From contig NZ_JALJWF010000001.1 in the NCBI RefSeq assembly GCF_024168645.1, positions 859,001-923,000 of the forward strand: a DNA stretch of 64,000 bases, read 5' to 3'. This stretch comes from Pseudomonas sp. GGS8. Lineage in GTDB: Bacteria > Pseudomonadota > Gammaproteobacteria > Pseudomonadales > Pseudomonadaceae. Positions 9,333 to 31,233 of the stretch are shown in pieces. Made by a program: the position numbers and the translations under genes. The notes beneath the pieces are model-generated. The model saw only the letters and a list, made by a program, of their open reading frames with translations, did not search any database and was not told the DNA's origin. Each line of letters opens with the position of its first letter. Positions within the stretch are counted from its first letter, which is position 1.

Positions 9333-9393
9333 TATGTAAATTCCTTTTTGGTGTAGATTCGATATGGCGCAAAGAATTCGCTATGGAAGCAAC

Positions 9394-15030: not shown

Positions 15031-15150
15031 ATGCTTACGGACGCTCACTGCCGGGCTGCCAAGCCCAAAGCCAAGCTGTACCGCATCAACAATGCTAGAG
15101 GGCTTTACCTAGAGGTAATAGGAACCGTGGATTTCCACGGACCTCGATAG
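15031..15150 (+). pseudogene. 5' stub of a P4-type tyrosine integrase
   Basis: ATG 15031 opens MLTDAHCRAAKPKAKLYRIN then NARGLYLEV, the highly typical first 29 residues of P4/CP4-57-type integrases. AAGGAGA lies 10 bases upstream. After LEV the frame continues with 12 unrelated residues and stops. The arm-binding domain remainder and the whole catalytic domain (R...HxxR...Y) are absent, so about 93% of the gene was lost. It implies that an integrative element once sat here. Confidence 0.8.
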
Positions 15151-15300: not shown

Positions 15301-15462
15301 ATGCCATTTCCTTTCGAACGTCGTCTGGTTTTGCTTGATGTTATTGCCATCAGATCCCAGATCATCGCTGGACTTGAACACCTGGAAAAACATACCTCAG
15401 GCTTGCCGCTCCAGGTCGCCAGCGTTTTCGTGCAGTGGGCACACAGGAATTTCAGCAAGTGA
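15301..15462 (+). CDS. small ORF coupled to the MocR regulator gene
   Basis: A 53-residue product (MPFPFERRLVLLDVIAIRSQ to QWAHRNFSK). CAGGGA lies about 9 bases before ATG 15301, and an in-frame ATG at 15292 is possible. Its stop overlaps the GTG at 15459 as GTGA, the arrangement of translational coupling. It looks like an amphipathic helical protein. No family is recognised. A leader or co-regulatory peptide for the regulator is a guess. Confidence 0.5.
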   Translation: MPFPFERRLVLLDVIAIRSQIIAGLEHLEKHTSGLPLQVASVFVQWAHRNFSK

Positions 15463-16859
15463 GCCTGCTTACAATCAAAGACGCCTCTTTCGCCTATCAG
15501 GCGGTGTACCGCTATCTGGTCGAGCTGATCGAAACCGCCAATTCGGAACGTGAACAGAAATTGCCGTCCTTGCGGCAACTGGCCCGGCGCCTGAATGTGT
15601 CGGTGTCGACGACCAAGTACGCCTATTCGCTTCTCGAAGACGAGGGACGGATCTATGCCAAACCCAAGTTCGGTTATTTCACCAAGGCGATGCCGGCCCC
15701 CTTATTGAACGAGGGCTCGCCCAATCTGCTGGACAACGTATTCTCCAACGCGCGCCAGCCGGGGATGCTGGCCCTTAGCAGTGACGCGCCGGCGATGTTG
15801 TTGTCGCTGGAAAACCCGTTGTTGATGATGGAGCGCGAATTGGCCCGGCAATACCCGCGTTCCCATGCGCCACTCTATCAGCCGTTCGGCGAGCCTGAGT
15901 TACGCGGCGCCCTGGCCGACCGCTACACCCGTTCCACCCACAGCTACTGGCAGGCCGAGCACGTGTTTATCGGCTCGGACCTGCGCAGTGTGCTGGAGTT
16001 GTCCCTCAGTGCCTTGAATCTGGGTGGCACTGTGGCGCTGGTGGAGTCGCCTTGCTCATGGGCGATCCTGCGTCAGTTGCAGGCAGCCAAGATTCGCGTG
16101 ATCGAAGTCCCGCTCGGCGAGGATGGACGCTTCGATCTGTCCACGCTCAGTGAGTTGCTCAGGCGTGAGCCCATCCGGCTGGCGGTGCTGTCGTCGACCG
16201 TGAATATTCCCCAAGGCAAGCTGATGCCGGCGCAGGATAAACAGCAAATCTGTCGCTGGCTGGCGGAGCGGGATGTCTGGCTGTTCGAAAACGACAGCTA
16301 CGGCGAGTTCTATTTCTCTCCCAAACCCGCGCGCTATCGCGATTTTGCCGATCCGGAAAAGCTGCTGGTGTTCTCAACCTTCGACAAGATCATCGGCTCG
16401 GAAGCGCCCTATGGTTATGTACTGTGTCGCCGACACGGGCCTCAGTTGCATCGGCTATTTCTGGAACGGGCATTTCGTCTGTCGCCGATCCGTCAGAAAG
16501 CGATCGCCAAACTCTTCAGCTCCAAGCGCATCGACCAGCATCTAATGGTGCTGCGGGCCATGCTGCTGGACCGGATGAAACGGATGGAGGCCTTGCTGGA
16601 GGCGCACGGCGATGGCCAGCTACGGGTTGTCGCCCCGCAAGGCGGAGCGACCTTCTGGCTCGAGGCCAGGCACTCGGTGGACATGCGGCGGGTGTTCGAG
16701 CGCTTGCTGGCCCAGCGCATCGTTATCGCCCCCGGGGAAATATTCAGCCAGCAGGGGGCCTGGCGGCATCACGTGCGCCTGAGCTACACCCTCGACTGGA
16801 GCAAGGATATTCCCCAGGCCCTGAAGAAACTGGCCCAGGCTATCAGCGAAGAGTCATAG
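15459..16859 (+). CDS. MocR/PdxR-type regulator (GntR HTH fused to aminotransferase-fold domain)
   Basis: A 466-residue protein. The N-terminal GntR-type winged helix (about 8-75) has YRYLVELIETANSEREQKLP, SLRQLARRLNVSVSTTKYAY and LLEDEGRIYAKPKFGYF. A fold-type I PLP domain (about 110-465) contains YQPFGEPELRGALADRY and SSTVNIPQGKLM; the PLP-lysine region is near DKIIGSEAPYGY (about residue 310). MocR proteins sense amino acids or PLP through the aminotransferase fold. I start at GTG 15459, with AGGA upstream and overlap with the small ORF; GTG 15435 is also in frame. It converges on the mutase/ligase operon and likely governs it. Confidence 0.88.
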   Translation: MSLLTIKDASFAYQAVYRYLVELIETANSEREQKLPSLRQLARRLNVSVSTTKYAYSLLEDEGRIYAKPKFGYFTKAMPAPLLNEGSPNLLDNVFSNARQPGMLALSSDAPAMLLSLENPLLMMERELARQYPRSHAPLYQPFGEPELRGALADRYTRSTHSYWQAEHVFIGSDLRSVLELSLSALNLGGTVALVESPCSWAILRQLQAAKIRVIEVPLGEDGRFDLSTLSELLRREPIRLAVLSSTVNIPQGKLMPAQDKQQICRWLAERDVWLFENDSYGEFYFSPKPARYRDFADPEKLLVFSTFDKIIGSEAPYGYVLCRRHGPQLHRLFLERAFRLSPIRQKAIAKLFSSKRIDQHLMVLRAMLLDRMKRMEALLEAHGDGQLRVVAPQGGATFWLEARHSVDMRRVFERLLAQRIVIAPGEIFSQQGAWRHHVRLSYTLDWSKDIPQALKKLAQAISEES

Positions 16860-16865
16860 CCATGC

Positions 16866-17681
16866 CTAGAGCCCATAGCAATGCCGCGATTCAGGGAAGC
16901 GGCCATCGCGCACCTCTTCGGCAAAACGCTCACAAGCGCCGCGAATCACCGCGCCGACATCAGCGTACTGCTTGACGAAGCGCGGCACCTGTTCACCGCC
17001 CAGACCCAGCACGTCCTCGGTCACCAGCACCTGGCCGTCGCAGGCCGGTGAGGCGCCAATGCCGATGGTGGGCATTTTCGAATCCAGGGTAATTTGCCGG
17101 GCCACGCCTTCAGCCACCCCCTCGAGCAGCAGACTGAAGGCCCCGGCTTCGAGGTTGGCCCGAGCGTCCTCGGCAATCATCGCACCGGCTTCGGCGGTCA
17201 GGCCCTGGGCCTTGAACCCTCCCATGACATTGACGAACTGCGGCATCAGCCCGACGTGGGCCATGACCGGAATGCCGCGTGCCACCAGAAACTCGACGGT
17301 ACCCGCCAGGGCCTTGTTGGCTTCCAGTTTGACGGCATCGCAACCGGTGCGCGCCAGGACCTGCGCGCAATTGCGAAAGGCCTGTTCGTTAGATTCCTGA
17401 TAGCTGCCGAAAGGCATGTCGGCGATGACGCAAGACAGGCGCGTGCTGTCGACCACGGCCCGGGTGTGTCCGATGATTTCTTCGAGCTGCATACTCAGCG
17501 TCGAGGCCCGACCGTAGCCGACCATAGCAGTAGAGTCACCGACCAGAATGAAATCGACGATTGGGTCTATCAACCTGGCAATAGAGCTGGAGTACGCCGT
17601 CAGGGATACGATTTTCTGTTGGCCCTTCATCGCGACCAGTTGCGGAACCGTCAATCGTTTAGTACGGGTATGAGCGCTCAT
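16866..17681 (-). CDS. PanB-like ketopantoate hydroxymethyltransferase homologue
   Basis: A 271-residue TIM barrel with PanB landmarks: [20 protein letters not shown] (metal-binding D near 49), [10 protein letters not shown] (D about 88), CDAVKLE (K118, E120), [11 protein letters not shown] and [17 protein letters not shown]. The canonical KLEGG is KLEAN here, and the first metal loop differs, so the oxo-acid substrate may not be 3-methyl-2-oxobutanoate. No panC or panD is nearby. It is the last gene of the mutase/ligase operon and probably a pathway-specific one-carbon transferase using methylene-tetrahydrofolate. The ATG at 17681 has AGGAAG upstream. Confidence 0.82.
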
Positions 17682-17730
17682 AAGTGTCTTCCTGTGATGA
17701 TTGAAAACCCCGGGGAGGGGGCGTCTGTCA

Positions 17731-18984
17731 CTACAACCAGTCTTTCTCCCATTCACGCCAGGTTTCATGGTCCTGGCGGATTCTGTCGGCGCTCGGGTGC
17801 ACCAGAAATACGGCACCCGGCGAGCTGTTGAGGTCGATGGTCGGCGTTTTTGGGCGACCGTCGGTGAAACGAAAGCGCGCGTTATAAAAGCTCGGCAGAG
17901 CCTCCAGGCGCTTGCGTACATCGAGTTGGGCGAAGACGCCGCTATGGCGGGCGATCAGGTTTAGTCCGCGGGCGTGCTGCTGCAAGCGATAGCGCTTGGG
18001 AAACGATGCCAGTCGGGCCGGCTCCAGATAGCTGGTGCAAGTCAGCGCGACCTGGTCGTTGCCGGTAGCCGCTTGCAGCGCCGGTGGGTTGGCCAGCCCG
18101 GAAAGACGGGCACCGGTTTCCAGCAGGCGCGGGCCGCAAGCCGTGAGGATCACTTCGGTATGGGCCGGACCGTGGGTGATGGCCAAGGCATCGAGCACGC
18201 CTTCGACGTAATCGATCAGCCCATCAAGCTCCGGCGCATCGGCGGGCAGCAGGTCTTCACGGTCATAGATCTTGCGACCGTCGACGCTCAGCGTCTTGGT
18301 GCATTTCCAGACATCAGTGATCCAGTGCTCACCCTGATGGCTGACACTGTTGATAACGTACTCGTCGCCTTCCAGGTATTCCTGCAACAACAGCGCCCGG
18401 TTGCTGCGCATCATCAGGTTAGTAGCGCCGAGAATGCAGTCGATGGCCGCGTGCAGTTGCCCGGCATCGTGGCAGATGAACACATTATCGGAGCCCGCAC
18501 TGTCCAGTGGCTTGACCACCACCGTCGATTCGCCACGAGCCTGGAACCAGGCCAAAGCCTCTGCGCTGGAGGCGGTGCGCAGTTGCGCAGCCACCGGTAA
18601 TCCGGCAGCAGCGACCTGTTCGGCCATCAGCGATTTGTCACGACGGGCGGCAGAGTATTCGGGATCATTACCGGGCAGGCCGAGACGGGCGGCCAGCAAA
18701 TCCGCCAATTCGACACCGAATTCGCTGCCGGTCAACACCGCTGCTGGCGCCTGGGCCGCGAGCTTTTCCAGCAACGGTTCAAGGCCTTCCTCATGCACGC
18801 CGTAGTGCGCGCGGAACAGGGTCTGCGGGCAACTCGCGGCAAAGGCCGGTGGCATGTCGTTGCGTGAACGCACATGCAGCAGTGGGCGATGCTCCGCCAA
18901 AGCCTGGGCCAGCAGAGCGCCGGTGGAATAGGCGTCGACCAGAATCAGCGGCGCCAAAGTGTAGTCAGTGCAAGGGTTGGTCAT
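17731..18984 (-). CDS. ATP-grasp domain ligase (first of two)
   Basis: A 417-residue protein. The N-terminal Rossmann-like part is at about 10-110 ([18 protein letters not shown]). The ATP-grasp fold (about 115-320) has [20 protein letters not shown], the ATP-binding strand [20 protein letters not shown], the hinge [19 protein letters not shown], and the metal-binding [20 protein letters not shown]. Such enzymes activate a carboxylate as acyl-phosphate and join it to an amine, giving dipeptides or amides. It overlaps the end of the mutase epsilon gene by 20 bp, which indicates coupled translation. Substrates are unknown. Confidence 0.85.
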
Positions 18985-20221
18985 AACGGTTCACCGTGTA
19001 ATGCAACATCTGGAACAATTCGGACGAGGTAATACCCGGTCCGATCGAAGAAAGACCGCAACTCTGGGGCAGCGGCAGGCCACCGACATTGCCCCAACGC
19101 AAGGCACCGTGGTCGTCAATGCGGGTCGTGGCGCAGCCAGGGTTATCGGGGTGCAGGCAGTAGGGAATGTCGAGCCGCCCACGGGCGAAAGCCTGGAGTA
19201 ACGCGACGCCAATATCGGTGTGCAGGTCCAGCGTGCTTTCCACCAGTTGCCGCGCCTCGAACAACACTTCCTGGCGATAGCCTTCACTGACCGGATCGAT
19301 CTCCAGTGCGTCGCCCGCGGCGGCTTCGGCCGCCATCGCCAGGGCTTCGAGGTTGTCCGCAACCGATGGAATCTGCCGGGATTCGGCAACGGTCTTGACG
19401 ATCAATCGCTCGCAGCCGGCAGCCTGGGTCAGGCGCGCACTGTCATAGATCAGGCGGCGAGCACCATGACCGGTGGTGGGAAAGACCCCCATGTAGGAAT
19501 ACACCACGACATGCCAATGGACGCCGTCCAGATAGTCGGCGGCCAGTTCGCGCAGGGCCTGCAAAGCTCCGAAATCCTGGGCCATGGACGTGCCCTGGGC
19601 GTAGCTTAACGAGACGCTGCGAATGCCTTGCTGGCGAAAGAACAAAGCCTCAAGCAAGGTCATCGCGATCAGCATTGACGGCGGGCACAGCTGACCCAGC
19701 AAACAACCGCCGAAGCTCTCTATATGACCATGCGCAGTGGCATCGGCCAGCAACTGACAACTTTGCGCCCAAGCCTCGATTGCCCGCGCCAGAGGCAAAC
19801 GGCTGTAAGGCATGCAGTAGGACACCGGGCCGCCTTCGGTGGCGTCGAGCCCGAGGGCCGCCAATCGCTTGAAAACATTCTGCGGTTGGGCGGTGCCATG
19901 GCGGACCTGGATCGGGAACGACGGGCCGTAGAGCCCATCGAGCATGCCACGCACCGCTTCCAGCGGATGGCTGATGATCGGGAAACCGTTCAGCGGGCTG
20001 TCGCTGTTCAGGCACTGCAGCGCGCTCTGGTAGTCACCGACCCGGGTGTAGCTGTCCAGGGTGATGGTTCCGATGGTGGCGCAGGGTAACCCGGCCACCG
20101 CGGCCAACCCGGCGCGCATCGGCGCCAATCCGCCGAAGCCCATGCGCGGTTGCACCACCAGTTCGCGCCGTTCCCGAGCCTGCTCGATGAAACGCTGGAA
20201 ATGACCTCCTGTCATGTCCAT
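18965..20221 (-). CDS. glutamate mutase epsilon-subunit homologue
   Basis: A 418-residue TIM barrel homologous to the epsilon subunit of adenosylcobalamin-dependent glutamate mutase, which interconverts L-glutamate and 3-methylaspartate. The residues that bind glutamate are kept: R26 (VVQPRMG), R60 (LDSYTR) and R107 (VRHGT) match the arginine claw, and E129, Y135 and Y139 match the active-site Glu/Tyr set (TEGGPVSYCMPYSR). The rest is divergent and shorter than the usual 480 residues. I start at the ATG at 20221; a GTG at 20224 touches the upstream stop. The B12-binding partner is encoded at 22991, two genes upstream in the operon. Confidence 0.85.
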   Translation of the reverse strand: MDMTGGHFQRFIEQARERRELVVQPRMGFGGLAPMRAGLAAVAGLPCATIGTITLDSYTRVGDYQSALQCLNSDSPLNGFPIISHPLEAVRGMLDGLYGPSFPIQVRHGTAQPQNVFKRLAALGLDATEGGPVSYCMPYSRLPLARAIEAWAQSCQLLADATAHGHIESFGGCLLGQLCPPSMLIAMTLLEALFFRQQGIRSVSLSYAQGTSMAQDFGALQALRELAADYLDGVHWHVVVYSYMGVFPTTGHGARRLIYDSARLTQAAGCERLIVKTVAESRQIPSVADNLEALAMAAEAAAGDALEIDPVSEGYRQEVLFEARQLVESTLDLHTDIGVALLQAFARGRLDIPYCLHPDNPGCATTRIDDHGALRWGNVGGLPLPQSCGLSSIGPGITSSELFQMLHYTVNRYDQPLH

Positions 20222-20224
20222 CAC

Positions 20225-21721
20225 TCAGCGCCCCGACACCAGTTCAACCACGTTTTCACCCGTGGCCGGGTCGAAACGGGTTATCCGGCCCTTATGCGGA
20301 TCACCGGCGCGAACCCGGGCAATCAGGCTGCTGTCGCTATCAAAATCGATCTGCTGATGGGCGTACAGACTGCGTAGCGCTGGCAACGGCAAGCCGCTGA
20401 CCTGGTTCAGCCACAGGCTCAGAGCGCTGTCCTGGCGACTACCGGCCAGGACACCGTGAAGGTCCTCCAGATCTGCCAGACGCTCAGGGTGACAGGTCGT
20501 GATGAAGCTCGACAGCTCGCGGCCACGCTCGACGAAGGGCGCGAACTGCAGACAAGTCAGTTGTATCTCGTCGAGCCCGAACGCCTCGTTGGCGAAACGA
20601 TTCGCCAGCGCCCGACGAGCGTCCTTGCCTTCGGCCCCGGCGTAGGCCGACAGTGCCAGGTCGATCAGGCGCTGGGGCATTTCCTTTTTGCGCATCAAGC
20701 CCTGGGCCAGCTCCAGGTATTCGCTGATACCGTCATGGTAGTGACGACCCTGTACGTACTGCGCCTTGAGCCCGCGAAAGTGCGCCATCAGCATTGGGTT
20801 GGCGCAGTCTGATTCGGTGAAACTGAACGCCAGTTCTTCGAAGCGGAAATCGAGAAACTCGGTAATCAACTCCCAGTGGTCTTCCACCCGGTAGCTCACC
20901 AGGTCGTAGATGCTGATGAAGTCCGGGTCGGCGCTTTCGCTGCCGCTGGCCACCCTACGTTCAGCCCGCTGTTCGTCGAAGCCCTCACCGAACAGTTCGA
21001 CGAAATACACCTGGGCCACCCCATCAAGGGCCTGGAGCAGGCCGCGAAATCCCTGGCGCCGACACTCGTCGACGTTCAGCCCCAAACGTTGGGCCAGGCG
21101 CATGATCCAAGTGAAGTAATGCTTCTGTTCCTTGCGCGAATCACCAGTGACCACCGCGTCGACACCGCCTTGCCACCAGGCCGCACGCCCGTAGAAGTCG
21201 GCGACCGCCAGGTTGCAACTGTTACAGAACGTCGGGCGGCCGTCGCCAGCGGTACGATGGCCGTTCATCAGCACATCGAAGCGGTTCATCGCGCGCACCT
21301 GCCCGGGGAATGGCAAGTGACGTTCGAACGGGCGAATCTGCTGGTGATCGACCACCAGCATCTCGACCCGAGGATCGTCATACAAGTGCAGGGCCCGATA
21401 GACCCGGTCGATGTTCGCCATGACCGCATCCGGGACCCCGGCGTGACGCATGTTGGCAATGCGCAGGAAGAAGGTACGGCCATGCAGTACGTTCAGGTGC
21501 AGTTGCACGGCGCGGATCAGCGACACGGTGTAGGAACTGTCCTTGCCGCCGCCATAGGCCACCATCAGCTTGTAGTCCGCGAGCCCGTCAACACCGCCGG
21601 CGGCATCGATCAACCGTTCCCCCAAGGTGGCGACGGCACGTCGGTCCACCGCACTGAGGTAGCGATTCAACTCGCCGAGCAAGGGGGCGTCGGCCATTTC
21701 AGAGGTAATGGCAATGTTCAT
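20225..21721 (-). CDS. PP-loop (N-type ATP pyrophosphatase) superfamily enzyme
   Basis: A 498-residue protein with the PP-loop YGGGKDSSYTVSL at 56-68, used to bind ATP and form an adenylate with release of pyrophosphate. A CxxC pair (TFCNSCN, C166/C169) and the following GDSRKEQKHYF are typical of TtcA/TilS- and amidotransferase-like members and could bind zinc or take part in thiolation. The C-terminal 250 residues are unlike families I know. It likely adenylates a carboxylate or carbonyl of a pathway intermediate for amidation or sulfur insertion. It overlaps the upstream ATP-grasp gene as ATGA. Confidence 0.75.
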   Translation of the reverse strand: MNIAITSEMADAPLLGELNRYLSAVDRRAVATLGERLIDAAGGVDGLADYKLMVAYGGGKDSSYTVSLIRAVQLHLNVLHGRTFFLRIANMRHAGVPDAVMANIDRVYRALHLYDDPRVEMLVVDHQQIRPFERHLPFPGQVRAMNRFDVLMNGHRTAGDGRPTFCNSCNLAVADFYGRAAWWQGGVDAVVTGDSRKEQKHYFTWIMRLAQRLGLNVDECRRQGFRGLLQALDGVAQVYFVELFGEGFDEQRAERRVASGSESADPDFISIYDLVSYRVEDHWELITEFLDFRFEELAFSFTESDCANPMLMAHFRGLKAQYVQGRHYHDGISEYLELAQGLMRKKEMPQRLIDLALSAYAGAEGKDARRALANRFANEAFGLDEIQLTCLQFAPFVERGRELSSFITTCHPERLADLEDLHGVLAGSRQDSALSLWLNQVSGLPLPALRSLYAHQQIDFDSDSSLIARVRAGDPHKGRITRFDPATGENVVELVSGR

Positions 21722-22956
21722 ATCGGTTCGGCCTGGAAGTGAAAGTTCTTGATCGCGTGGTGGATGTCGCTCTCGATATCCATTTCGCTCGCGTCGGTGA
21801 AAATGAAGCGACCGCTGTGCAGGGCGTCGTAGCTGCCGCCGGCTTCAAGTATCTGTCCGGGCCGGGGCAGCAGTTCTCGCCAGAGCGAGTTCAGGTGCGG
21901 GCGCAGCGTTTGCGCCTCGATTACCCGGCATGGCAGTTGTGCCGGTTTGGGGACGACCAGCCAGCCACCGCTGGGATCCGCCTGGATCGTCGGCAAGGGC
22001 ACGCGCTCACCGGCCAGGCCTTTGAGCCAATGCTCATAGAGGTTCACACCGAAGACTTTGTTGATCAGATGTGGCACTTCGCTGCCGCCCACCCGGGCTC
22101 CCACTTCAAGGAACACAAGCGATTCATCCGCCTCGACGAATATCTCCAGGTGAAAGGCGCTGTTGCGCAGGTCCAATGCCCGCAGGCAGGACTCGCTGAA
22201 GACTTCGATCCGGGTGCGCAACTCCGAAGACTGGAGGATCACTGAACCCAGCGGTTTGGCGTTGGTGAAATCCAGGCAGCTGTTGATGTAGCGCGACACC
22301 ACCTGGAAAGGCACCCCGGCGCTGTCATCGGTGAAACCGTCGATGTGATAAGTCTGGCCCTGGATGAAGGCCTCGACCTCATAGCGCCTCAGGTCCACTT
22401 CGCTGAGTATCACGCGCAGGGCCTGGGCGTCCTCGACCTTGGCGACGCCGATGCTGGCGGCGCCATCCACCGGTTTGACGATCACCGGATAGCCGACGGC
22501 ATCGGCGAACTCCAGCGCCTGTTCCACGTCACTGCAGCGAATGAACGGTGGCACCGCCAGGCCGTGTTCCCGGAGGACTTCTTTCATTCGTGCCTTGTCG
22601 CGGTAAACCGCCACCTGCTCCAGGCCGTGACCAGGAATGTTCAGGGTCTGTCGTACCCACGCCGCGATCTCCAGAGTGAACTCCGACAGCGCGATCAATT
22701 GGTCCACGGGACCGACGCGATCGATGATTTCCTGAACGCCTGCCAACAACTGAGGGTACTGATTGACGTCATCGACCTGTACCAGATGGGCGATGTGCTC
22801 CCGGGGGGCCAGTACGCCCTCGGCGCCAAGGCCGTCGACCACATAGCTGATCCGATGTCGCTGATGATCGAAGAACTCTTCGTAGCGGGTCAGTTCATTG
22901 TCCCAGCGACTTGAGTCCTGGAAACGCGGCCAGCGATTGACGATAACGATATGCAT
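21718..22956 (-). CDS. ATP-grasp domain ligase (second of two)
   Basis: A 412-residue protein of the carboxylate-amine ligase type. The pre-ATP-grasp domain spans about 1-105. The ATP-grasp core has YRDKARMKEVLREHGLAVPP, YPVIVKPVDGAASIGVAKVE, YEVEAFIQGQTYHIDGFTDD, and the metal site HLEIFVEADESLVFLEVGAR followed by VGGSEVPHLI. It shares little direct identity with the other ligase at 17731, so the two probably act on different couplings. The ATG at 22956 (MHIVIVNRWP) gives the family N-terminus. The stop overlaps the next start. Confidence 0.87.
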   Translation of the reverse strand: MHIVIVNRWPRFQDSSRWDNELTRYEEFFDHQRHRISYVVDGLGAEGVLAPREHIAHLVQVDDVNQYPQLLAGVQEIIDRVGPVDQLIALSEFTLEIAAWVRQTLNIPGHGLEQVAVYRDKARMKEVLREHGLAVPPFIRCSDVEQALEFADAVGYPVIVKPVDGAASIGVAKVEDAQALRVILSEVDLRRYEVEAFIQGQTYHIDGFTDDSAGVPFQVVSRYINSCLDFTNAKPLGSVILQSSELRTRIEVFSESCLRALDLRNSAFHLEIFVEADESLVFLEVGARVGGSEVPHLINKVFGVNLYEHWLKGLAGERVPLPTIQADPSGGWLVVPKPAQLPCRVIEAQTLRPHLNSLWRELLPRPGQILEAGGSYDALHSGRFIFTDASEMDIESDIHHAIKNFHFQAEPI

Positions 22957-22990
22957 CGATTCGATCCTGTGAAAAAAAAGAAGGCTGGAC

Positions 22991-23446: not shown

Positions 23447-24666
23447 TGCGTTGCCTCCATGGCTGAGGGGGAAAAGTCCAGGGCGGTGCGAAAGCGCCGG
23501 GTGGTCAGGTTGAACAGCAAGGCGCCGGGGATGATGAGCAGCAGCGCGAGGGCCAGGATCAATGTCTGGACCCCGTACTCATGGCCGATACTGGCGGTCA
23601 GCAGGCCGCCCAATGGGTAGGACAGCAGGTTGACCAGGTAGAACGGGCCCATCACCTTGCCCAAGTGGTCGGCGGCAATCGCCTTGATACGCTGAGTCCG
23701 ATTGAACACGTTGAACAAGGCACAGCCGGCCATCGCCAGGAGAAAACTGATGGCATAGAGCGCTACACCGCTGGCCGCTCCCATACAGATCAGGCCCAGG
23801 CAGAGCAAGGCAAAACCCAATGTACCGAGGCGGTAGATCGACATCCGCGCCAGCAGCCGCGGCACCAGAATGAAATTGAGCAAGCCCAGTGCACCGGCAC
23901 CGGCGTTCATCAGGCCGAACACCCCGTCGGCGGCACCGAACACGCCACTGATGACAAAGGCATTGGCACTCAGAACGCAGGCAAAGGCCAGGTTGATGGT
24001 GAAATTGAGCAGCGCCAGGGATAAGACCGGCGGATTGTTCGATAACAGACTCCAGCCCAGGACCAGGTCCTTGCGGATGCTCTTCGGCGGGCTGGCCGAC
24101 TGGGTATTGGGCAGGCCTTTCCAACACACACCCGCCACGGCGAATGCCAGCGCCGCCAGCCCCAGAAGCAGGCGCTTGTCGGCGTACATCGCCAGCAGTG
24201 CCGCCAGCGCCGGGCCCAGCGCCATGGCCAGCAGCTCCATGTTCTGCACCAGGGATTGGCAGTGGGCCAGGCGTTCGGGACCGGCGATCAGCGGTACGCT
24301 CTTTTCCACCGCCATACGCACCGGCGCCATCAGCAGCGAGAGCACGATGCCGTTGCCGATCAGGGCCCAGACCGTAAGCATTGGCGCATACCAGCAGACC
24401 CCGGCAGTCAACCCCAGGCTCACCGCTCGCGCGGTATTGGCGTGGCGAAACAGCAGACGCCCGCCGAAGCGGTCCGCCAGCAGTCCGGCAAACGGATAGG
24501 CCAGCAGTGCCGGTAGCCACTCCAGAGCGAACGCCACTCCGGAGTAACGGACATTGCCGGTGAGCTGGAAGATCATCAACGGCACTGCGAACAGCACCGT
24601 TTGTTCCGCCAACAGAGCGAACAGCAGGCCGGCACCGAAACGCCGCAGCCGGGCTGTGTCATGCAT
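23443..24666 (-). CDS. MFS transporter, probable product exporter
   Basis: A 407-residue protein with about 12 hydrophobic helices of the MFS enterobactin/macrolide exporter type. FALEWLPALLAYPFAGLLAD then RFGGR is the loop 2-3 motif, and a second half starts around NPPVLSLALLNFTINL. The position inside the biosynthetic operon, with an 8-base overlap with the monooxygenase stop (ATGCATGA), suggests export of, and self-protection from, the pathway product. Confidence 0.88.
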   Translation of the reverse strand: MHDTARLRRFGAGLLFALLAEQTVLFAVPLMIFQLTGNVRYSGVAFALEWLPALLAYPFAGLLADRFGGRLLFRHANTARAVSLGLTAGVCWYAPMLTVWALIGNGIVLSLLMAPVRMAVEKSVPLIAGPERLAHCQSLVQNMELLAMALGPALAALLAMYADKRLLLGLAALAFAVAGVCWKGLPNTQSASPPKSIRKDLVLGWSLLSNNPPVLSLALLNFTINLAFACVLSANAFVISGVFGAADGVFGLMNAGAGALGLLNFILVPRLLARMSIYRLGTLGFALLCLGLICMGAASGVALYAISFLLAMAGCALFNVFNRTQRIKAIAADHLGKVMGPFYLVNLLSYPLGGLLTASIGHEYGVQTLILALALLLIIPGALLFNLTTRRFRTALDFSPSAMEATQ

Positions 24667-25729
24667 GCTGGCTTTCCAGTTCGGCCTCGAGCTTGCGCAG
24701 GCGTGGCAACACATGGCGACAGAAACCGCGCATTTCGTCACGGGTCGGCCAGCCGGAAAAGATGAACTCGCTGACCCCTACTTTCTTGTATTCCAGCAGA
24801 TATTCAGCCACTTCCTGATAGCTGCCGACCACGCACAGCGCCGGGCCGCCACGGTAGGCCACGGCTCCGGACCAGAGCATTGGCGACAGCCAGTCATGCT
24901 CAGCCTTGTCGGCCAGACGGAACGAAGTCTTGACGGCCTCGGAGTCGCAACGCCCGACGAACTGACGTACCCATTCGCGATGCTGCTCATCCGGGTTTTC
25001 CATCATGCTTTCAACGGCCGACAGGGCTTGCGCACGGGTTTCCCGAGCCAGCACATGCATGCGAATCCCCACCGAACAACCCGCCTCGAGCACTGCCCGG
25101 CTGGCCTCGGCGATACCCTGCGGCGTGTCGCCGTAGCGTAACCAGCAATCGCTGTGTTTCACGGCGATCTGCTGGGCGATTTCCGAAGCGCCGCTCAGAT
25201 AGATGTGTGGACGTTCGTTGTCCTTGAAAGGCAGTCCCAATTGCGCTTGCTCGATACGGTAATGAGCGCCGTGATGGGTCAGGGGCGTTTCGCCTTTCCA
25301 GAAACGATGCAAGATCTCGAGGAATTCGCTGGTGCGTTCATAACGTCCGTCGTGGGCCACGAAGTCGCCATAAAAGGCTTGTTCATCGGGGGAAATACCG
25401 GCGACCAGGTTCAATGCAATACGCTTGTCGGACATCCACGACACGGTATTGACGATCTGCGTGAACAGCGTCGGCGGCAGCAGGCCGGGGCGATACGCCA
25501 GGATGAATTTGACTCGGCTGGTCTCTCGGACCAGGGCGCCGATCATTGGCAGCGGGTCAGGCATGTGGTAGCTGATACCCATCAGCAACGAGTCGATCCC
25601 CAACTCATCGGCTTCCTGAGCGAAGTCGACAATACCGGCAAAGTCCAGGGCACCAGTGTTGTATTTCTCGGAAGCCTTTTGTTGACCGCTGTCGAGCGGT
25701 GAGCACCAGTGGATACGCAACGCGGGCAT
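24659..25729 (-). CDS. luciferase-like (LLM) flavin-dependent monooxygenase
   Basis: A 356-residue bacterial-luciferase fold enzyme close to the alkanesulfonate monooxygenase SsuD group: IDSLLMGISYHMPDPLPMIG, VKFILAYRPGLLPPTLFTQI, WMSDKRIALNLVAGISPDEQ, RPHIYLSGASEIAQQIA and VVGSYQEVAEYLLEY. It uses FMNH2 and O2; the reductase partner is not in the operon. Likely an oxidation or C-S/C-N cleavage step on the product. The ATG at 25729 follows GGAG. An in-frame extension to 25840 looks non-coding. Confidence 0.9.
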   Translation of the reverse strand: MPALRIHWCSPLDSGQQKASEKYNTGALDFAGIVDFAQEADELGIDSLLMGISYHMPDPLPMIGALVRETSRVKFILAYRPGLLPPTLFTQIVNTVSWMSDKRIALNLVAGISPDEQAFYGDFVAHDGRYERTSEFLEILHRFWKGETPLTHHGAHYRIEQAQLGLPFKDNERPHIYLSGASEIAQQIAVKHSDCWLRYGDTPQGIAEASRAVLEAGCSVGIRMHVLARETRAQALSAVESMMENPDEQHREWVRQFVGRCDSEAVKTSFRLADKAEHDWLSPMLWSGAVAYRGGPALCVVGSYQEVAEYLLEYKKVGVSEFIFSGWPTRDEMRGFCRHVLPRLRKLEAELESQHA

Positions 25730-25793
25730 GGTTTTTCTCCAGAGCAGCGCCTGCCGCCGCCTGAAAGCGGGGCAGCGCAAAAGTGACGGTGGG

Positions 25794-26723
25794 TCAGAAC
25801 AGGAAGCTGGTACCGACGGTGCGGTCGAACAGCGCAACATCGCGGATGCGACGTTTGCCGCAGATAAACTTCAGCAGTCGCTCGATCCCCAGCCCGCCGC
25901 CGGCGCTCGGATGAAGCAGGCCGCGCTTGGCGACTTGGAGATAATTGGCGAAGGGCGCAAGGTCCATCGACAACTCTTCCATGCGGTAGATGATCTGTTC
26001 GTACTCGAACTCTCGTTCGGCACCCGACAGGGCTTCGCCATAGCTGTCGGGATAGATCAGGTCGTAGTTGTTGTACTGGCCGCGCTTGCCGGGTGTTTCG
26101 CGATCATAGAATTCCCGGCGGTAGTTGGTGACGAAGAACGGCGTGTGGGCCTTGGCCGACATGATCTTCTCGAAGTCGTCGCCATACTCGGCGCGCAACT
26201 CGTCCGAGCTGTACATCGGAAAGTGCGTCTCGTAGTGCGGCAGCTGGCGATTGAGGTGGGCCAGCTGGGCCGAGCAGTGTTGCCTGACCTCGGCGAAGGT
26301 GTGCTTGATCAAGCCTTCGATCAGCGCCATGACCTGGTGCATGTTGCCGCCACGTATTTCGAAGTCGAACTGGGAGAATTCCAGCAAGTGGTTTTCCGAA
26401 TCCTTGATCTCGGCTTTTTCCAGACGAATGTTCGGCGCCACGATAAAGATCTTGTCATGACCTCGGGCAGTCAATGCCAGCTGTTTATGGAAGATCATGC
26501 TGGCGGTCAGTTTCAGGCGCCGCGTTTCATACTGGAGTTCAGCGGGGTAGACCGCATGGTTCAAGGGGTCAGTGATGGGCGACATGAGAATGGGCATCAG
26601 CTGCTTGAAGTCGCGCTCCAGCAAATATTGTTGCAATGCCTGCAGCACGCGACCGCGGATAATCGCGATCGCTTCAACGTCCGGGTGATTAAAATCGTCG
26701 AAATTACGCTGAATTTCTTCCAT
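25794..26723 (-). CDS. AsnRS-like amide synthetase lacking the anticodon domain (archaeal-type asparagine synthetase relative)
   Basis: A 309-residue class II aminoacyl-tRNA-synthetase catalytic core with no anticodon-binding OB domain. Motif 2 region: APNIRLEKAEIKDSENHLLE followed by FSQFDFEI. Motif 3: GGGLGIERLLKFICG. This layout is that of the stand-alone AspRS/AsnRS paralogues in archaea that make asparagine from aspartate. In an operon with a methylaspartate-type mutase, amidation of a (methyl)aspartate-like acid is an attractive inference. First gene of the minus-strand operon. Confidence 0.8.
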   Translation of the reverse strand: MEEIQRNFDDFNHPDVEAIAIIRGRVLQALQQYLLERDFKQLMPILMSPITDPLNHAVYPAELQYETRRLKLTASMIFHKQLALTARGHDKIFIVAPNIRLEKAEIKDSENHLLEFSQFDFEIRGGNMHQVMALIEGLIKHTFAEVRQHCSAQLAHLNRQLPHYETHFPMYSSDELRAEYGDDFEKIMSAKAHTPFFVTNYRREFYDRETPGKRGQYNNYDLIYPDSYGEALSGAEREFEYEQIIYRMEELSMDLAPFANYLQVAKRGLLHPSAGGGLGIERLLKFICGKRRIRDVALFDRTVGTSFLF

Positions 26724-26969
26724 GTTGCGCTCAATATCCAGGGTTAGGAAGTGCCCGATTATTGGTTAAACACGCAAAAACTCAATGTACAGATTTGCCC
26801 TAAAAAGCAACCCAGATGCATTGTCTGGTTGTCCCGCCCGGTAATTGGATGGACCATTACCGGCTATGTACCTGATGGCTTCATTCGAACGGCACTGCCT
26901 GTTCAAGGGCGTGGTTTCGAATGCTGTTTCAGTCGCGAGTTTTCATGAGTTCCTGTTTAGAGTCCCTTT
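26724..26969. promoter_or_regulatory. divergent promoter region with inverted repeat
   Basis: A 246-bp gene-free region between the biosynthetic operon (-) and the transporter/amidase unit (+). It holds the perfect inverted repeat CGGTAAT-N10-ATTACCG at 26839-26862 (arms with TGGATGGACC between), a good candidate operator. The MocR regulator encoded at the far end of the operon is the obvious candidate ligand-responsive binder. That link is inferred. Confidence 0.5.
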
Positions 26970-28283
26970 ATGACGGCCCACATTGATCCACAACCCGGTC
27001 GCTTTTCCCGGTCTGACTACAAGACCCTGGGCCTGGCGGCGCTGGGTGGTGCGCTGGAAATCTACGACTTCATCATCTTTGTGTTCTTCGCCCTGACCCT
27101 CAGCCAGTTGTTCTTTCCGCCAGAGATGCCTGAGTGGCTGCGCTTGCTGCAAAGTTTCGGAATTTTCGTCACCGGCTATCTGGCACGTCCGCTGGGCGGC
27201 ATCCTGATGGCGCATTTCGCAGACCGGGTGGGGCGCAAGCGGGTGTTCAGCCTGAGCATCCTGATGATGGCTTTGCCCTGCCTGTTGATCGGAATCATGC
27301 CGACCTACGAACAGATCGGTTACTGGGCACCCTTGACGCTGCTGCTGTTGCGGGTGCTGCAAGGTGCCGCGGTGGGCGGCGAAGTGCCTAGCGCCTGGGT
27401 GTTCGTGGCCGAGCATGCCCCGGTCGGGCATCGTGGCTATGCCCTGGGTGTGCTGCAGGCCGGATTAACGTTTGGCTATCTGCTGGGGGCACTGACCGCA
27501 ACCCTCCTGGCGCGGCTCTATAGCCCCGCCGAGATCCTCGACTTCGCCTGGCGCCTCCCCTTCCTGCTGGGTGGTGTATTCGGGGTGATCGGGGTCTGGC
27601 TGCGGCGCTGGCTGAGTGAAACCCCGGTGTTCATGGCCTTGCAGGCGCGACGTAAATTGGATGCGGAGTTGCCATTACGGACAGTATTGCGCGATCACCG
27701 CAAATCCATCCTGCCGGCGATGCTTTTGACCTGTGTGCTGACATCGGCGGTGGTGGTGCTGGTGGTGATCACCCCGACTGTCATGCAGAAAAGCTTCGGC
27801 ATGAGTGCCAGCCATACGTTCGCGCTGAGCAGCCTGGGCATTGTGTTCCTGAATATCGGCTGTGTACTGGCTGGATTACTGGTGGACCGGATCGGCGCCT
27901 GGCGCGCGGTACTGGTTTATAGCCTGCTGCTGCCGGTGGGGACCGCGGTGCTTTACGCCAGCCTGATCAGTGGTGGCTACTTGATCAGCGTGGCCTATGC
28001 GCTGGCCGGCCTGACCTGCGGCGTAGTGGGTGCGGTGCCCTCGGTAATGGTGGGGTTGTTTCCGACCCGGATCCGGGTGTCCGGTATCTCCTTTACCTAC
28101 AATATTGCCTACGCACTCTGGGCCAGTACCACGCCGCTTCTGCTGATCGGACTGATGCCGTGGAGCCCTTGGGTCTGCGTAGGCTATTGCGTGGTCATGG
28201 GGGCCGTCGGGGCACTCATGGCGTTGTTCTTCGGCTTTCGCTCCTCGTCGGTGGCTGACGTTTCGGTGGTTCCAGGCGCCTGA
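26970..28283 (+). CDS. MFS transporter, metabolite:H+ symporter (MHS) type
   Basis: 437 residues and 12 predicted helices. ALGGALEIYDFIIFVFFAL is the TM1 text of the MHS group (ProP/KgtP/ShiA-like). The signature HFADRVGRKRVFSLSI lies in loop 2-3, and LRVLQGAAVGGEVPSAWVFV in TM4. MHS members usually import organic acids, betaines or amino-acid-like solutes, so this is likely an importer. It heads a plus-strand unit with an amidase gene 64 bp downstream. Confidence 0.88.
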   Translation: MTAHIDPQPGRFSRSDYKTLGLAALGGALEIYDFIIFVFFALTLSQLFFPPEMPEWLRLLQSFGIFVTGYLARPLGGILMAHFADRVGRKRVFSLSILMMALPCLLIGIMPTYEQIGYWAPLTLLLLRVLQGAAVGGEVPSAWVFVAEHAPVGHRGYALGVLQAGLTFGYLLGALTATLLARLYSPAEILDFAWRLPFLLGGVFGVIGVWLRRWLSETPVFMALQARRKLDAELPLRTVLRDHRKSILPAMLLTCVLTSAVVVLVVITPTVMQKSFGMSASHTFALSSLGIVFLNIGCVLAGLLVDRIGAWRAVLVYSLLLPVGTAVLYASLISGGYLISVAYALAGLTCGVVGAVPSVMVGLFPTRIRVSGISFTYNIAYALWASTTPLLLIGLMPWSPWVCVGYCVVMGAVGALMALFFGFRSSSVADVSVVPGA

Positions 28284-28347
28284 GCCTGACCTTTTCGCGC
28301 CGCCGGTCGCGGCGCTTGCCCCTGAATACCAAAGGACGGCAATCGGC

Positions 28348-29763
28348 ATGAGCTGCGTCAACGATTTGCATGATCTATCGGCGGTGCAACTGTTGGTGTT
28401 GTTCGCCAGCAAGGAGCTGTCACCGCTGGAGTACTACGACCATTTGCTGGCCCACATCGAGCACTGGGAACCCCATCTTAATGCCTTGTACGCCTTTGAC
28501 CCGCAACGGGTCCGGGAACAGGCGGCCGCCGCCAGCGAGCGCTGGAGCCGGGGCCAACCCCGTGGTCTGCTCGATGGTTTACCCGTGACGCTCAAGGAGT
28601 TGATAGCGACGCAAGGCGACTGCATTCCCCTGGGCTGCGCCGCGACCGAGTTGATCCCGGCCACAGCCGACGCACCACCGGCGGCGCGGATGCGTGAGGC
28701 CGGAGCGATAGTCCTGGGCAAGACAACGGTTCCGGACTACGGGATGTTGTCGTCGGGGCTGTCGAGTTTCCACGGCGTGACACGCAATCCCTGGAACCTG
28801 GCGAACAATCCCGGTGGTTCCAGTGCCGGCGCGGCGGCGGCAGCAGCGGCCGGCTATGGGCCGCTGCATGTCGGCACCGACATCGGCGGGTCGGTCCGTT
28901 TGCCCGCAGCCTGGTGCGCCCTGGTGGGGTTCAAGCCGACACTCGGGCGCATCCCCATCGACCCGTATTACACCGGCCGTTGTGCCGGCCCCATGACCCG
29001 CAGCATGGATGACTGTGCACTGATGATGCGCTACCTGTCCCGCCCCGATGCGCGGGATGCCACCAGCCTGCTACCGGAACAAGGCGATTGGGCCCTGGAA
29101 CAGTTGTCGATCCAAGGGCTGAAAATCGGTCTGATGCTCGATCCCGGCTGTGGCATTCAACCAGACGAACAGGTGTGCTCGGCGGTTCGGGAAGCGGCTC
29201 GCCTATTCGAAAGCCAGGGCGCCCAGGTACGTCAGATCAAGCCACTGATGGACCGAGCCGTGCTCCAGGGCCTGGATCAATTCTGGCAGGCGCGACAGTG
29301 GAGTCAGTTGCAGGCCCTGAGCCCCGAGCGGTTCGATCAGGTCTTGCCCTACATTCGCGACTGGGCGGCAGCGGCCGAGAACCTGAGCGCCGTGCAGGCG
29401 GTTGAGGGGTTCAACCAGACGTTCGAAATCCGGCGCCGGGCAGCCGAGGTCTTTCATGATGTCGACCTGGTGTTGTCGCCGACCAACCAGGTCAGTGCCT
29501 TTGCGGCTGAATGGGCCTCGCCCACCAATGACCCGCGCCTGCCGTTCGAGCACATCGTCTTCACTGTGCCGTGGAACATGGGCGAGCAGCCAGCCCTGTC
29601 AATCAACTGCGGCTTTACCGACCAAGGCATGCCAATCGGCCTGCAGATGATCGCTCCGCGCTTCGCAGACCAGTGGTTGCTTCGGCTCGGCAAGGCCTAT
29701 GAAAACTGGCGCGGCACGATTCGGCACTGGCCCAGCCCGCCGTCTCGCCAAAGCATTTTATAG
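28348..29763 (+). CDS. amidase-signature family hydrolase
   Basis: A 471-residue amidase. The Ser-cisSer-Lys triad is visible at K83 (VTLKE), S158 (NNPGGSSAGAAAA) and S182 (GTDIGGSVRLPA), with the exact 75- and 24-residue spacings of the family. It hydrolyses a carboxamide or amide to acid plus amine or ammonia; the substrate cannot be deduced. Placed between an MHS importer and an OprD porin it may break down an imported amide, or deamidate/activate the product of the divergent operon. Confidence 0.92.
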   Translation: MSCVNDLHDLSAVQLLVLFASKELSPLEYYDHLLAHIEHWEPHLNALYAFDPQRVREQAAAASERWSRGQPRGLLDGLPVTLKELIATQGDCIPLGCAATELIPATADAPPAARMREAGAIVLGKTTVPDYGMLSSGLSSFHGVTRNPWNLANNPGGSSAGAAAAAAAGYGPLHVGTDIGGSVRLPAAWCALVGFKPTLGRIPIDPYYTGRCAGPMTRSMDDCALMMRYLSRPDARDATSLLPEQGDWALEQLSIQGLKIGLMLDPGCGIQPDEQVCSAVREAARLFESQGAQVRQIKPLMDRAVLQGLDQFWQARQWSQLQALSPERFDQVLPYIRDWAAAAENLSAVQAVEGFNQTFEIRRRAAEVFHDVDLVLSPTNQVSAFAAEWASPTNDPRLPFEHIVFTVPWNMGEQPALSINCGFTDQGMPIGLQMIAPRFADQWLLRLGKAYENWRGTIRHWPSPPSRQSIL

Positions 29764-29764
29764 C

Positions 29765-29798
29765 CCTGTGGGATCGCCGCACCGCACGCTCCCACAGG
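29765..29798. repeat. REP-type hairpin
   Basis: CCTGTGGGA ... TCCCACAGG inverted repeat just after the amidase stop; the core is the pseudomonad REP sequence. It may also limit read-through into oprD. Confidence 0.65.
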
Positions 29799-29874
29799 AT
29801 TTTCGTTGCTCAAATTTCTTAACTGACAGGCATTAGCAGCGTGTGCCTGTTTTTTTGTCTAGAGACTTATCGAA

Positions 29875-31233
29875 ATGGATTTTCGTGTACTTCTGATGGC
29901 CGGTATTGCCGTCGGCAGCCCTTTGATTGTGACTGCGGATGAAACGCCGACCACTCAAGCCCAGGCCCCGGGTTTTGTCGACGGCAGCCATTTGGGGCTG
30001 AACTTGCGCCATTACTATGCCAACCAACACACCCGACATTCTACCTACCTGGGGATCAAGAAAGAAGATGGCCTGGAGCGGACCCGCATCCGTGAAACCT
30101 GGGTGCAAACCGCGATGCTCAACTACAGCTCCGGATATACCCAAGGGGCGGTCGGCTTCGGGCTGGACGCTTCATTGTTCAGCGCCATCAACCTGGAGCG
30201 TGGACATGGGCGTGTCGCCAATGGTGGCGATCGGGTGCTGGTGGACAGCGATGGCGATGCGCTACCGACCTGGAGCCGTTTGGGTGTCGGTGATCTGCGG
30301 CTGCGTTTTTCCAGCACAGAAATCAAGGCCGGTCGCTTGCTCACCGACAACCCGATTCTGCGTTACAAGGACAATCGCGCCCTGCCCTCGAGCTTTCAGG
30401 GCGTAGGCCTGTTCAGCAACGAACTCGATTGGCTGTCATTGCAGGCCGGCAGCTTCGAACGGGCGATTCCACGTACCGGTACCGGCAGCGAAAAACTCAC
30501 CACCACCTTCGGTAACCGGGCGTATTCGGGGTCGCGTATTTCCTACCTCGGAGGAATGGCCAAAACCCCTTACGGTCTGGACGTCAGCCTCTACGCCTCA
30601 CGCTTCGAGGACATGTGGCAGCAGACCTATCTGGGATTGACCCAGTTGATCGGGGATCGACGCGAGATTGCGCTCAAGACTGCACTGAATTACTACCACA
30701 CCGAGGATCAGGGCGAGCAGCGCCTGGGCTACATCGACAATGACGCCTTCAGCCTGGCGTTCACCGCATCGCACCGGGCCCACAGCCTGACTCTGGCCTG
30801 GCAGCAGGTGTTTGGCGACGAGTATTTTGATTACGTCTGGGAGTCCACGGGCAATTACATGGCCAACTCGTTGTACTCGGACTACAACGGCCCGAACGAG
30901 AAGTCCTGGCAACTGCGCTACGACCTGGATCTGGCGTCTTTAGGGGTACCGGGCCTGACGACCAGTCTGTGGCACGCAAAGGGTTGGGACATCGATGGCA
31001 CCCATTACAGCGGCGACCGTAACGGGCGCAATACCGGTTACAACGTGCGGGGGCTGGACAATGCCAAACACGATGAAAACGGTTTAATGGTGGCGTACGT
31101 GGTGCAATCCGGCACACTGAAAAACGCGGTGTTTCGCACCATCGTCTACAACCATCGGGCCACGGGCGGGCAGATCGACGGAAGCTACGACGAGGTCCGC
31201 CTGGTGGCGAATCTGCCGATGTGGATTTTTTGA
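29875..31233 (+). CDS. OprD-family outer-membrane porin
   Basis: 452 residues with signal peptide MDFRVLLMAGIAVGSPLIVTA, then the OprD pattern: GLNLRHYYAN, RIRETWVQTAMLNYSSGYTQ, GVGDLRLRFSSTEIKAGRL, SSFQGVGLFS, and beta-strands to a C-terminal Phe (LVANLPMWIF), the outer-membrane assembly signal. OprD porins form narrow channels for amino acids, peptides or organic acids. It probably gives outer-membrane passage for the substrate of the MHS transporter and amidase upstream. Confidence 0.93.
   Translation: MDFRVLLMAGIAVGSPLIVTADETPTTQAQAPGFVDGSHLGLNLRHYYANQHTRHSTYLGIKKEDGLERTRIRETWVQTAMLNYSSGYTQGAVGFGLDASLFSAINLERGHGRVANGGDRVLVDSDGDALPTWSRLGVGDLRLRFSSTEIKAGRLLTDNPILRYKDNRALPSSFQGVGLFSNELDWLSLQAGSFERAIPRTGTGSEKLTTTFGNRAYSGSRISYLGGMAKTPYGLDVSLYASRFEDMWQQTYLGLTQLIGDRREIALKTALNYYHTEDQGEQRLGYIDNDAFSLAFTASHRAHSLTLAWQQVFGDEYFDYVWESTGNYMANSLYSDYNGPNEKSWQLRYDLDLASLGVPGLTTSLWHAKGWDIDGTHYSGDRNGRNTGYNVRGLDNAKHDENGLMVAYVVQSGTLKNAVFRTIVYNHRATGGQIDGSYDEVRLVANLPMWIF

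Follow-up and report, generated by a model that had tools for sequence, protein, structure and literature searches.

A Pseudomonas gene cluster built on a glutamate mutase-like enzyme and ATP-dependent ligases: a possible antimetabolite pathway with a second PanB as candidate immunity isozyme

What would a pseudomonad make with a B12-dependent mutase, several ATP-dependent ligases and a second copy of an enzyme of vitamin B5 synthesis, all encoded in one operon? The question is raised by a locus of the soil bacterium Pseudomonas sp. GGS8 that lies within positions 859001-923000 of contig NZ_JALJWF010000001.1 (hereafter the window, 64,000 nucleotides in all), in a genome of one 6.72-Mb contig whose relatives were searched within Pseudomonas. 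Nine minus-strand genes are accompanied there by a convergent regulator gene, mocR, and a divergent unit, mfs2-amidase-oprD. The gene cluster as observed is real. New here is that panB2 is a divergent second copy of the ketopantoate hydroxymethyltransferase gene and that it also stands in orphan cassettes with mocR outside the cluster genomes. We propose, with confidence evenly divided between yes and no, a horizontally spread cluster independent of non-ribosomal peptide synthetases (NRPS) that would make a small modified amino acid or short-peptide antimetabolite, with PanB2 as its immunity isozyme. Its features are as follows, in window coordinates.

15435-16859, plus strand: mocR, MocR-type regulator with GntR and aminotransferase folds (Pfam GntR and Aminotran_1_2)
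16866-17681, minus strand: panB2, second, divergent ketopantoate hydroxymethyltransferase, last operon gene (TIGR00222; open reading frame called from 17921)
17731-18984, minus strand: ATP-grasp 2, L-amino-acid-ligase/DdaF-like peptide ligase (PRK07206; PDB 30vh)
18965-20224, minus strand: mutE, glutamate mutase epsilon-like subunit, short form (PF06368, E 2.3e-83)
20225-21721, minus strand: PP-loop ATP pyrophosphatase with CNSCN motif (GGGKDS loop in alignment A3, weak fold match)
21718-22956, minus strand: ATP-grasp 1 (Pfam ATP-grasp_4; open reading frame called from 23049, conserved ATG near 22956)
22991-23446, minus strand: mutS, B12-binding subunit (PF02310)
23443-24666, minus strand: MFS exporter (family searches)
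24659-25729, minus strand: LLM, SsuD-like FMNH2-dependent monooxygenase (family searches)
25794-26723, minus strand: asnA, class-II aminoacyl-tRNA synthetase-like asparagine synthetase A (amide synthetase), first operon gene (PRK06462.1-4; PDB 3p8t)
26756-26793, minus strand: promoter/operator element with -35 TTGAGT, -10 AATAAT and conserved TCTGTRCATTGA, also upstream of orphan panB2
26970-28283, plus strand: mfs2, MHS-type metabolite:H+ symporter (TIGR00883, 281 bits, below the cut-off of 443)
28348-29763, plus strand: amidase-signature hydrolase (PRK07042, 783 bits against a cut-off of 458)
29875-31233, plus strand: oprD, OprD-family porin (PF03573)

The nine minus-strand reading frames, mocR and the divergent unit lie where the original prediction placed them, and family searches bear out its names. 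It had described the operon genes as overlapping or separated by short gaps; the genes stand, and the large overlaps do not, being mostly over-long reading frames, because four predicted starts were too long. Start conservation across other loci gives 24659-25729 for LLM, 23443-24666 for MFS, 21718-22956 for ATP-grasp 1 and 16866-17681 for PanB. No cobalamin riboswitch was detected in the window at Rfam gathering scores, two tRNAs being the only RNA matches.

Gene order recurs in 11 other Pseudomonas genomes and in other phyla, far beyond what chance would produce. Orthologues of the PP-loop protein, 72-100% identical, were found in 12 of 398 Pseudomonas genomes, the window's own included (all counts are of species-representative genomes and not of strains, and related genomes are not independent), and the order is identical in the stretches of the other 11. 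Two of these loci lack the MFS gene, one of them also the amidase; another ends at a contig end, and in G216 (G and L numbers denote our genomes and loci) the PP-loop gene is split into two overlapping pieces. A scan with a MutE profile, one genome per species, yielded 80 named loci kept of 315 confirmed, among which 30 carry the full core of LLM, mutS, ATP-grasp 1, PP-loop, mutE and ATP-grasp 2 at presence thresholds that we chose. Their hosts are Pseudomonas, Ramlibacter, Burkholderia, another member of the Burkholderiales, Nocardia, Streptomyces and Cellulomonas. All 30 also carry asparagine synthetase A, 13 of the proteobacterial type and 17 of a second type (about 35% identical) that adjoins a glutamate-synthase-like FMN domain. 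The conserved co-occurrence by which the original prediction wished to be judged is therefore present, and together with the enzyme families it supports the view that the cluster works without an NRPS, around a glutamate mutase and ATP-dependent ligases. No description of the gene set was found in the open-access (PMC) literature; the prediction, too, had been unable to name a matching pathway.

The four nearest cluster relatives (G355, G114, Pseudomonas sp. PICF141 and P. mandelii) hold the cluster at the window's site. The stretches examined at the remaining cluster loci compared gave no match to the DNA that flanks the cluster in the window, and G011 has the window's right-hand neighbour gene about 1.3 Mb away from the cluster. 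These differing sites indicate that the cluster is an accessory, moving unit.

The last gene of the operon offers a lead to its function. PanB2 scores 271.2 bits against TIGR00222, above the equivalog cut-off of 207.55, and keeps what we take to be the catalytic residues (D45, S46, D84, K112, E114, H136 and E181) in 41 of 41 alignment rows. Identity to PanB2 is 37-41% for housekeeping PanB proteins from 16 genomes, 63% for the cluster copy of Burkholderia and 59% for a third copy in G011 and G216. In all 12 cluster genomes PanB2 occurs together with a housekeeping-type PanB, and two of the 12 have a third full-length PanB; each of four cluster-free control genomes has a single PanB. PanB2 is present, furthermore, in each Pseudomonas cluster whose stretch extends to that end. 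This is the layout of a self-resistance isozyme, with an extra functional-looking copy in the operon and the housekeeping copy elsewhere, and it has a forerunner in ArgK, the resistant target isozyme of another antimetabolite cluster of Pseudomonas (PMC4530439). On the other hand, intact catalytic residues and a final position behind an ATP-grasp ligase also suit an enzyme of precursor supply or tailoring, through which PanB2, or PanE in actinobacteria, would let pantoate or a hydroxymethylated 2-oxo acid enter the product, for instance as an N-pantoyl 3-methylasparagine, a mimic of pantothenate or of a pantothenamide.

The occurrence of panB2 away from the cluster bears on this choice. PanB2-type genes were found in 79 of 398 Pseudomonas genomes, 12 with the cluster and 67 without (query, the third-copy PanB of L151; E ≤ 1e-75; the count includes kin of the third copy and more distant members). 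We fetched 18 non-cluster loci of these 67 genomes, picked across the ranking and not at random. In 15 of them, a MocR 51-83% identical to the window's stands beside PanB2 in the same convergent arrangement, with no core gene in the stretch; the three loci without MocR hold the most distant PanBs (53-55%). Five of the 15 orphan cassettes also have mfs2 at 82-85% identity (L154, L155, L156, L159 and L168), and none gave a match to the porin or the amidase. Every cassette genome has another, higher-scoring PanB, taken as housekeeping, and 14 of the 15 have no MutE at E ≤ 1e-10, G100 having a different one (45%) elsewhere. The lack of core genes and of MutE around these cassettes, like the housekeeping-type PanB found in all 12 cluster and all 15 cassette genomes, is awkward for precursor supply.

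Orphan and cluster copies are also linked by their regulation. The region upstream of orphan panB2 resembles that upstream of asnA and not that upstream of cluster panB: the L168 orphan reaches a local score of 99 against the asnA upstream region (maximum 15 in 200 single-base shuffles), whereas the 48 bases before the window's own panB score 7 (10 in shuffles). The 12-mer TCAATGYACAGA occurs free of mismatches upstream of asnA in 16 of 17 clusters, with one mismatch in Burkholderia, and upstream of panB2 in 12 of 15 orphans; the other three have it at 1, 1 and 2 mismatches, the last on the opposite strand. The 42 control regions listed comprise 17 cluster panB (one without sequence), 10 housekeeping panB, 7 PP-loop orphans, 4 asnA of other genera and 4 distant panB, and all 41 with sequence show at least 2 mismatches. 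The -10 half, CGATTATTGG, is less well conserved: 8 of 17 clusters and 11 of 15 orphans have it at 0-1 mismatch, and the controls come no closer than 2. Wherever the two halves occur together, they are 26 bases apart. Jointly they match the window once, at 26756-26793 (0 in 100 shuffles), where a promoter scan also finds a -35/-10 pair on the operon strand, although the scan's total of 4 sites compares with 4.3 in shuffles. Five orphans read mocR-panB2-promoter-mfs2 and the clusters mocR-panB2-biosynthesis-promoter-mfs2, so that the biosynthetic operon sits between panB2 and its promoter, a difference that may have arisen by insertion or by loss.

A regulator, a spare enzyme and a transporter kept without the pathway under the same promoter element are as expected of immunity to a product made by others. 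The original prediction had treated PanB as one more biosynthetic step, which a separable mobile MocR-PanB(-MFS) cassette with a shared promoter element fits less well than self-protection. The orphan cassettes tip the balance towards immunity over precursor supply, two roles that sequence alone cannot separate.

A tree of 35 PanB2-type proteins interleaves cluster and orphan copies, with 6-7 state changes, and well-supported branches force 5-6 cluster/orphan switches; five forks have weak support, two rows sit on long branches, and the same pattern would result if the cluster had been lost rather than gained. Such repeated switching, together with the constancy of PanB2 in Pseudomonas clusters, suggests a lasting functional tie. 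It speaks against the unlikely alternative of MocR-PanB2 as an ordinary metabolic accessory, a regulated second route to pantothenate and coenzyme A that the cluster captured for its promoter, beside a product unrelated to pantothenate. That alternative draws on the 67 cluster-free genomes among the 79 with PanB2-type genes, on further MocR-enzyme pairs such as MocR with a PP-loop homologue, and on a PanB paralogue (59%) in an unrelated adenylation/acyl-CoA-dehydrogenase cluster; it is set back once more by actinobacterial PanE, which independently points to the same pathway. The paralogue ends a row in G011 (L151:8865-15904) that comprises an adenylation enzyme, two acyl-CoA-dehydrogenase-like enzymes, an MFS protein and an alpha/beta hydrolase, and close copies (89-100%) are found in G216, G220 and G237. 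This row is perhaps another antimetabolite cluster with a PanB.

PanE, a ketopantoate reductase homologue, is encoded in 15 of 17 actinobacterial full loci (query, the S. xanthochromogenes protein; 50% identity); none of the 50 loci that lack the full core, some of them short stretches, has it at this threshold. Two of these PanE proteins were scored and reach 197.5 and 188.3 bits against TIGR00745 (cut-off 141.35). With PanB2 in some lineages and the next step of the same pathway in others, the pantoate link is seen twice. Precursor supply can claim this evidence as well: pantoate-pathway genes stand at 26 of 30 full loci, with a different step per lineage, and in Cellulomonas L071 PanE lies ahead of LLM in the same orientation. 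CJ-15,801, moreover, is described as a natural pantothenate-type antimetabolite (PMC7770189). With 4 of 30 full loci having neither PanB2 nor PanE within the stretch examined, and in view of the orphan cassettes, we regard precursor supply as doubtful.

What chemistry might PanB2 protect against? MutE residues 22-387 align with glutamate mutase (6h9e/1cb7), and all eight glutamate-contact residues, presumably R66, R100, R149, E171, Y177, Y181, K326 and E330, are identical and fall in invariant columns of alignment A1. It is a fair inference that MutS and MutE work like glutamate mutase; that they are one is unproved, since both score under the equivalog cut-offs. As MutE keeps the glutamate-contact residues, 3-methylaspartate and then its amide are the likely starting steps of the pathway. 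AsnA passes the equivalog cut-off of PRK06462.1-4 (319.7 bits against 309), and the one actinobacterial protein scored passes that of PRK06462.1-1 (429 against 368); two different types of asparagine synthetase A in different lineages argue for amidation of 3-methylaspartate. In secondary metabolism, MutS/MutE supply 3-methylaspartate in the nikkomycin and macrolactam clusters. The present cluster is set apart by its LLM, PP-loop and ATP-grasp genes, none of which accompanies MutE at 44 of the 80 scan loci at the thresholds used.

The 498-residue PP-loop protein gave no Pfam, NCBIfam or PDB sequence match at E ≤ 0.001. It has a GGGKDS loop and a CNSCN motif, and its AlphaFold model (pLDDT 85.7) bears a weak likeness to the ATP-pyrophosphatase cores of AsnB, NcsA, LarE and NadE; motif and weak fold match point to adenylation chemistry. 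The AsnB-like enzyme PesC is described as reaching a nitrile (PMC13060819), so that amide, nitrile, amidine or thio-chemistry are all possible for the PP-loop step. PesC shows that an AsnB/PP-loop fold can exceed amidation, and differs from the present case in belonging to a pathway for ribosomally synthesized and post-translationally modified peptides and in being AsnB-like, not of the present PP-loop family (PMC13060819).

Homologues of the PP-loop protein match in 276 of 398 Pseudomonas genomes, and most of the matches listed are 34-39% identical. At the seven such loci that we read (L032-L038; about 35-54%) all are paired with MocR, in one case in two pieces, and neither a mutase nor the ligases were found there. 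With low identity and these absences, we rejected the homologues as proof of a widespread cluster. The L038 protein (34%; one such sequence was aligned) has lost the GGGKDS loop and the FCN motif. The gene at G000:C1:5360393-5361727 was grouped with these MocR-paired homologues. Matches at E ≤ 1e-60 in a phylum sample came from 6 of 349 genomes, all Pseudomonas and five with a 37% paralogue only, so the family is rare elsewhere.

Both ATP-grasp proteins have the ATP-grasp domain and a ligase as closest solved relative, an L-amino acid ligase in each case (ATP-grasp 2, PDB 30vh, E 1.9e-72; ATP-grasp 1, PDB 4wd3, E 3.2e-20). ATP-grasp 2 exceeds the PRK07206 threshold (373.8 bits against 302) and falls short of the DdaF equivalog cut-off (199.4 against 840). 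Similarly, LLM stays below the NCBIfam cut-off for SsuD (195.2 against 518.2); it keeps three of the four SsuD anion-site residues, which we take to be R226, H228 and R297, and has W in place of the fourth, Y331. Flavin reductases of one type in 7 of 30 full loci and of another in 2 of 30, at the thresholds used, fit the need of an FMNH2-dependent enzyme.

From these families a pathway can be proposed. The adenosylcobalamin-dependent mutase MutS/MutE would convert glutamate to 3-methylaspartate, as its residues suggest, and AsnA, judged by its family, would turn this into 3-methylasparagine or a close relative. The PP-loop enzyme may make a second ATP-dependent C-N or C-S change and LLM may oxidize a pathway intermediate, which the two ATP-grasp ligases would couple to one or two partners before export by the MFS protein. 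MocR would drive the operon from the promoter at 26756-26793, its aminotransferase-like domain probably sensing an amino-acid-like product or precursor. If the product blocks the housekeeping PanB, or the alpha-ketoisovalerate/pantoate step, PanB2 would be an insensitive ketopantoate hydroxymethyltransferase that sustains pantothenate synthesis and builds no part of the product, and non-producing genomes would keep MocR-PanB2(-MFS) alone as protection. No candidate for the product could be fixed. Only tentatively, and with the balance of probability against it, we suggest a natural PanB inhibitor, a branched valine/alpha-ketoisovalerate mimic derived from 3-methylaspartate, which many Pseudomonas species would meet as non-producers with a product-sensing MocR-PanB2(-MFS) immunity cassette.

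Several observations weigh against a pantothenate-directed antimetabolite with PanB2 as immunity isozyme. We infer its chemistry, its contact with pantothenate (vitamin B5) synthesis and the immunity role alike. PanB2 is missing from two proteobacterial full loci (L052 and L076), which also lack the promoter element, and from the compact clusters described below and the 17 actinobacterial full loci, where PanE in its stead may just as well stand for precursor supply. The MocR-paired PP-loop orphans indicate that a MocR-enzyme pair is not necessarily an immunity unit. CGATTATTGG has at least 2 mismatches, as in controls, in 9 of 17 clusters and 4 of 15 orphans and is thus not specific; the 12-mer alone, at one mismatch, matches the window twice, a number equalled by 9 of 100 shuffles. 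As for the enzymes, MutE reaches 163.3 bits against the NCBIfam glutamate-mutase equivalog cut-off of 390.1 and MutS 55.1 against 110. The MutS motif, DxHxxN in the window and in 11 of 11 listed loci, keeps Asp and His and departs from what we take to be the base-off B12 motif of glutamate mutase, DxHxxG. The fold matches of the PP-loop protein are weak (best E 9e-3, none ≤ 1e-3).

The divergent transporter-amidase-porin unit, which the original prediction counted as part of the set, is not core: the amidase is absent from L030, and 25 of 398 genomes encode a close amidase and have no cluster. The MFS exporter was not found in L029, L030 and L048. That the porin, the MHS symporter and the amidase are kept in most Pseudomonas clusters read would suit a product that serves as nutrient, signal or metal ligand and is taken up again by way of OprD, mfs2 and the amidase, with no antimetabolite involved. 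This we consider highly improbable, as the loci of other genera gave no match to porin or amidase and, for mfs2, a match in Burkholderia L053 alone, as a family search of the operon yielded no TonB receptor or siderophore gene, and as mfs2 of the cassettes accompanies panB2 with no match to porin or amidase.

Flanking genes were rejected as part of the cluster: window positions 4563-15123 are absent from the L022, L041 and L042 stretches, mfs3 is distant from the cluster in G011, and the protein encoded at 14256-14729 was found in 1 of 19 searched genomes, the window's own. In Pseudomonas sp. PICF141 and P. mandelii the DNA passes from window position 4562 directly to 15124. The roughly 10.5 kb left of the cluster (4563-15123) includes an FMN reductase gene (12197-13099) and a LysR gene. 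Inside the operon, a terminator-like hairpin lies over the mutS stop (23001-22984) with a T-run after it, clear in the window, L021 and L022; GC hairpins resembling it were seen by eye at this junction in several other clusters and not in L030.

Variant loci carry parts of the set. A compact asnA-mutS-PP-mutE set occurs in Pseudogulbenkiania and Methylobacter. In one case, cluster L172 (NZ_CP091425.1), it is carried along with an EamA exporter and MocR on a 349-kb Methylobacter plasmid, beside an ISAs1 transposase and a group II intron. PP-loop and ATP-grasp 2 are absent from three Streptomyces loci, which retain LLM, ATP-grasp 1, MFS and mutase. In L063 and L065, LLM, ATP-grasp 1 and mutase are joined by an amino-acid kinase, a semialdehyde dehydrogenase, a class-III aminotransferase and a protein without Pfam match that has desaturase-like histidine motifs by eye, a set that suggests a 3-methyl-2,4-diaminobutyrate branch; of kinase, dehydrogenase and aminotransferase, L067 has a match to the dehydrogenase alone. 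At the thresholds used, 44 of 80 scan loci have the mutase without LLM, PP-loop or either ATP-grasp. Eight loci (L084, L097, L100, L103, L115, L116, L119 and L120) combine the mutase with the second asparagine synthetase A type and the glutamate-synthase-like FMN domain, with no PP-loop, LLM or cluster ATP-grasps at these thresholds, and are a further uncharacterised module.

Known systems offer partial parallels. Dapdiamide and bacilysin likewise use ATP-grasp peptide ligases without an NRPS, and ATP-grasp 2 is DdaF-like and ATP-grasp 1 distantly BacD- and 4wd3-like; the present ligases, however, do not come near the equivalog cut-offs of DdaF (840) and BacD (850), and the dapdiamide and bacilysin clusters are not known to include mutase, AsnA, PP-loop or LLM. 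Phaseolotoxin and ArgK of P. syringae, as described, resemble our proposal in a small Pseudomonas peptide antimetabolite and a divergent functional isozyme beside the housekeeping copy (PMC4530439). They differ in that phaseolotoxin is a sulfodiaminophosphinyl tripeptide made by other enzymes and directed at ornithine transcarbamylase, whereas the target in the present cluster is a proposed one. We know of no mutase in the phaseolotoxin cluster.

The PanB/pantoate step is essential and is not known from animals. As one review has it, no PanB inhibitors were known in 2020 except weak substrate analogues (PMC7770189). If our proposal is true, the cluster would provide a testable route to a first natural antimetabolite of this step and would bring a PP-loop enzyme family that has no name into NRPS-free peptide chemistry. 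It would also mean that immunity genes circulate apart from the toxin pathway, in a form that can be read from one promoter element.

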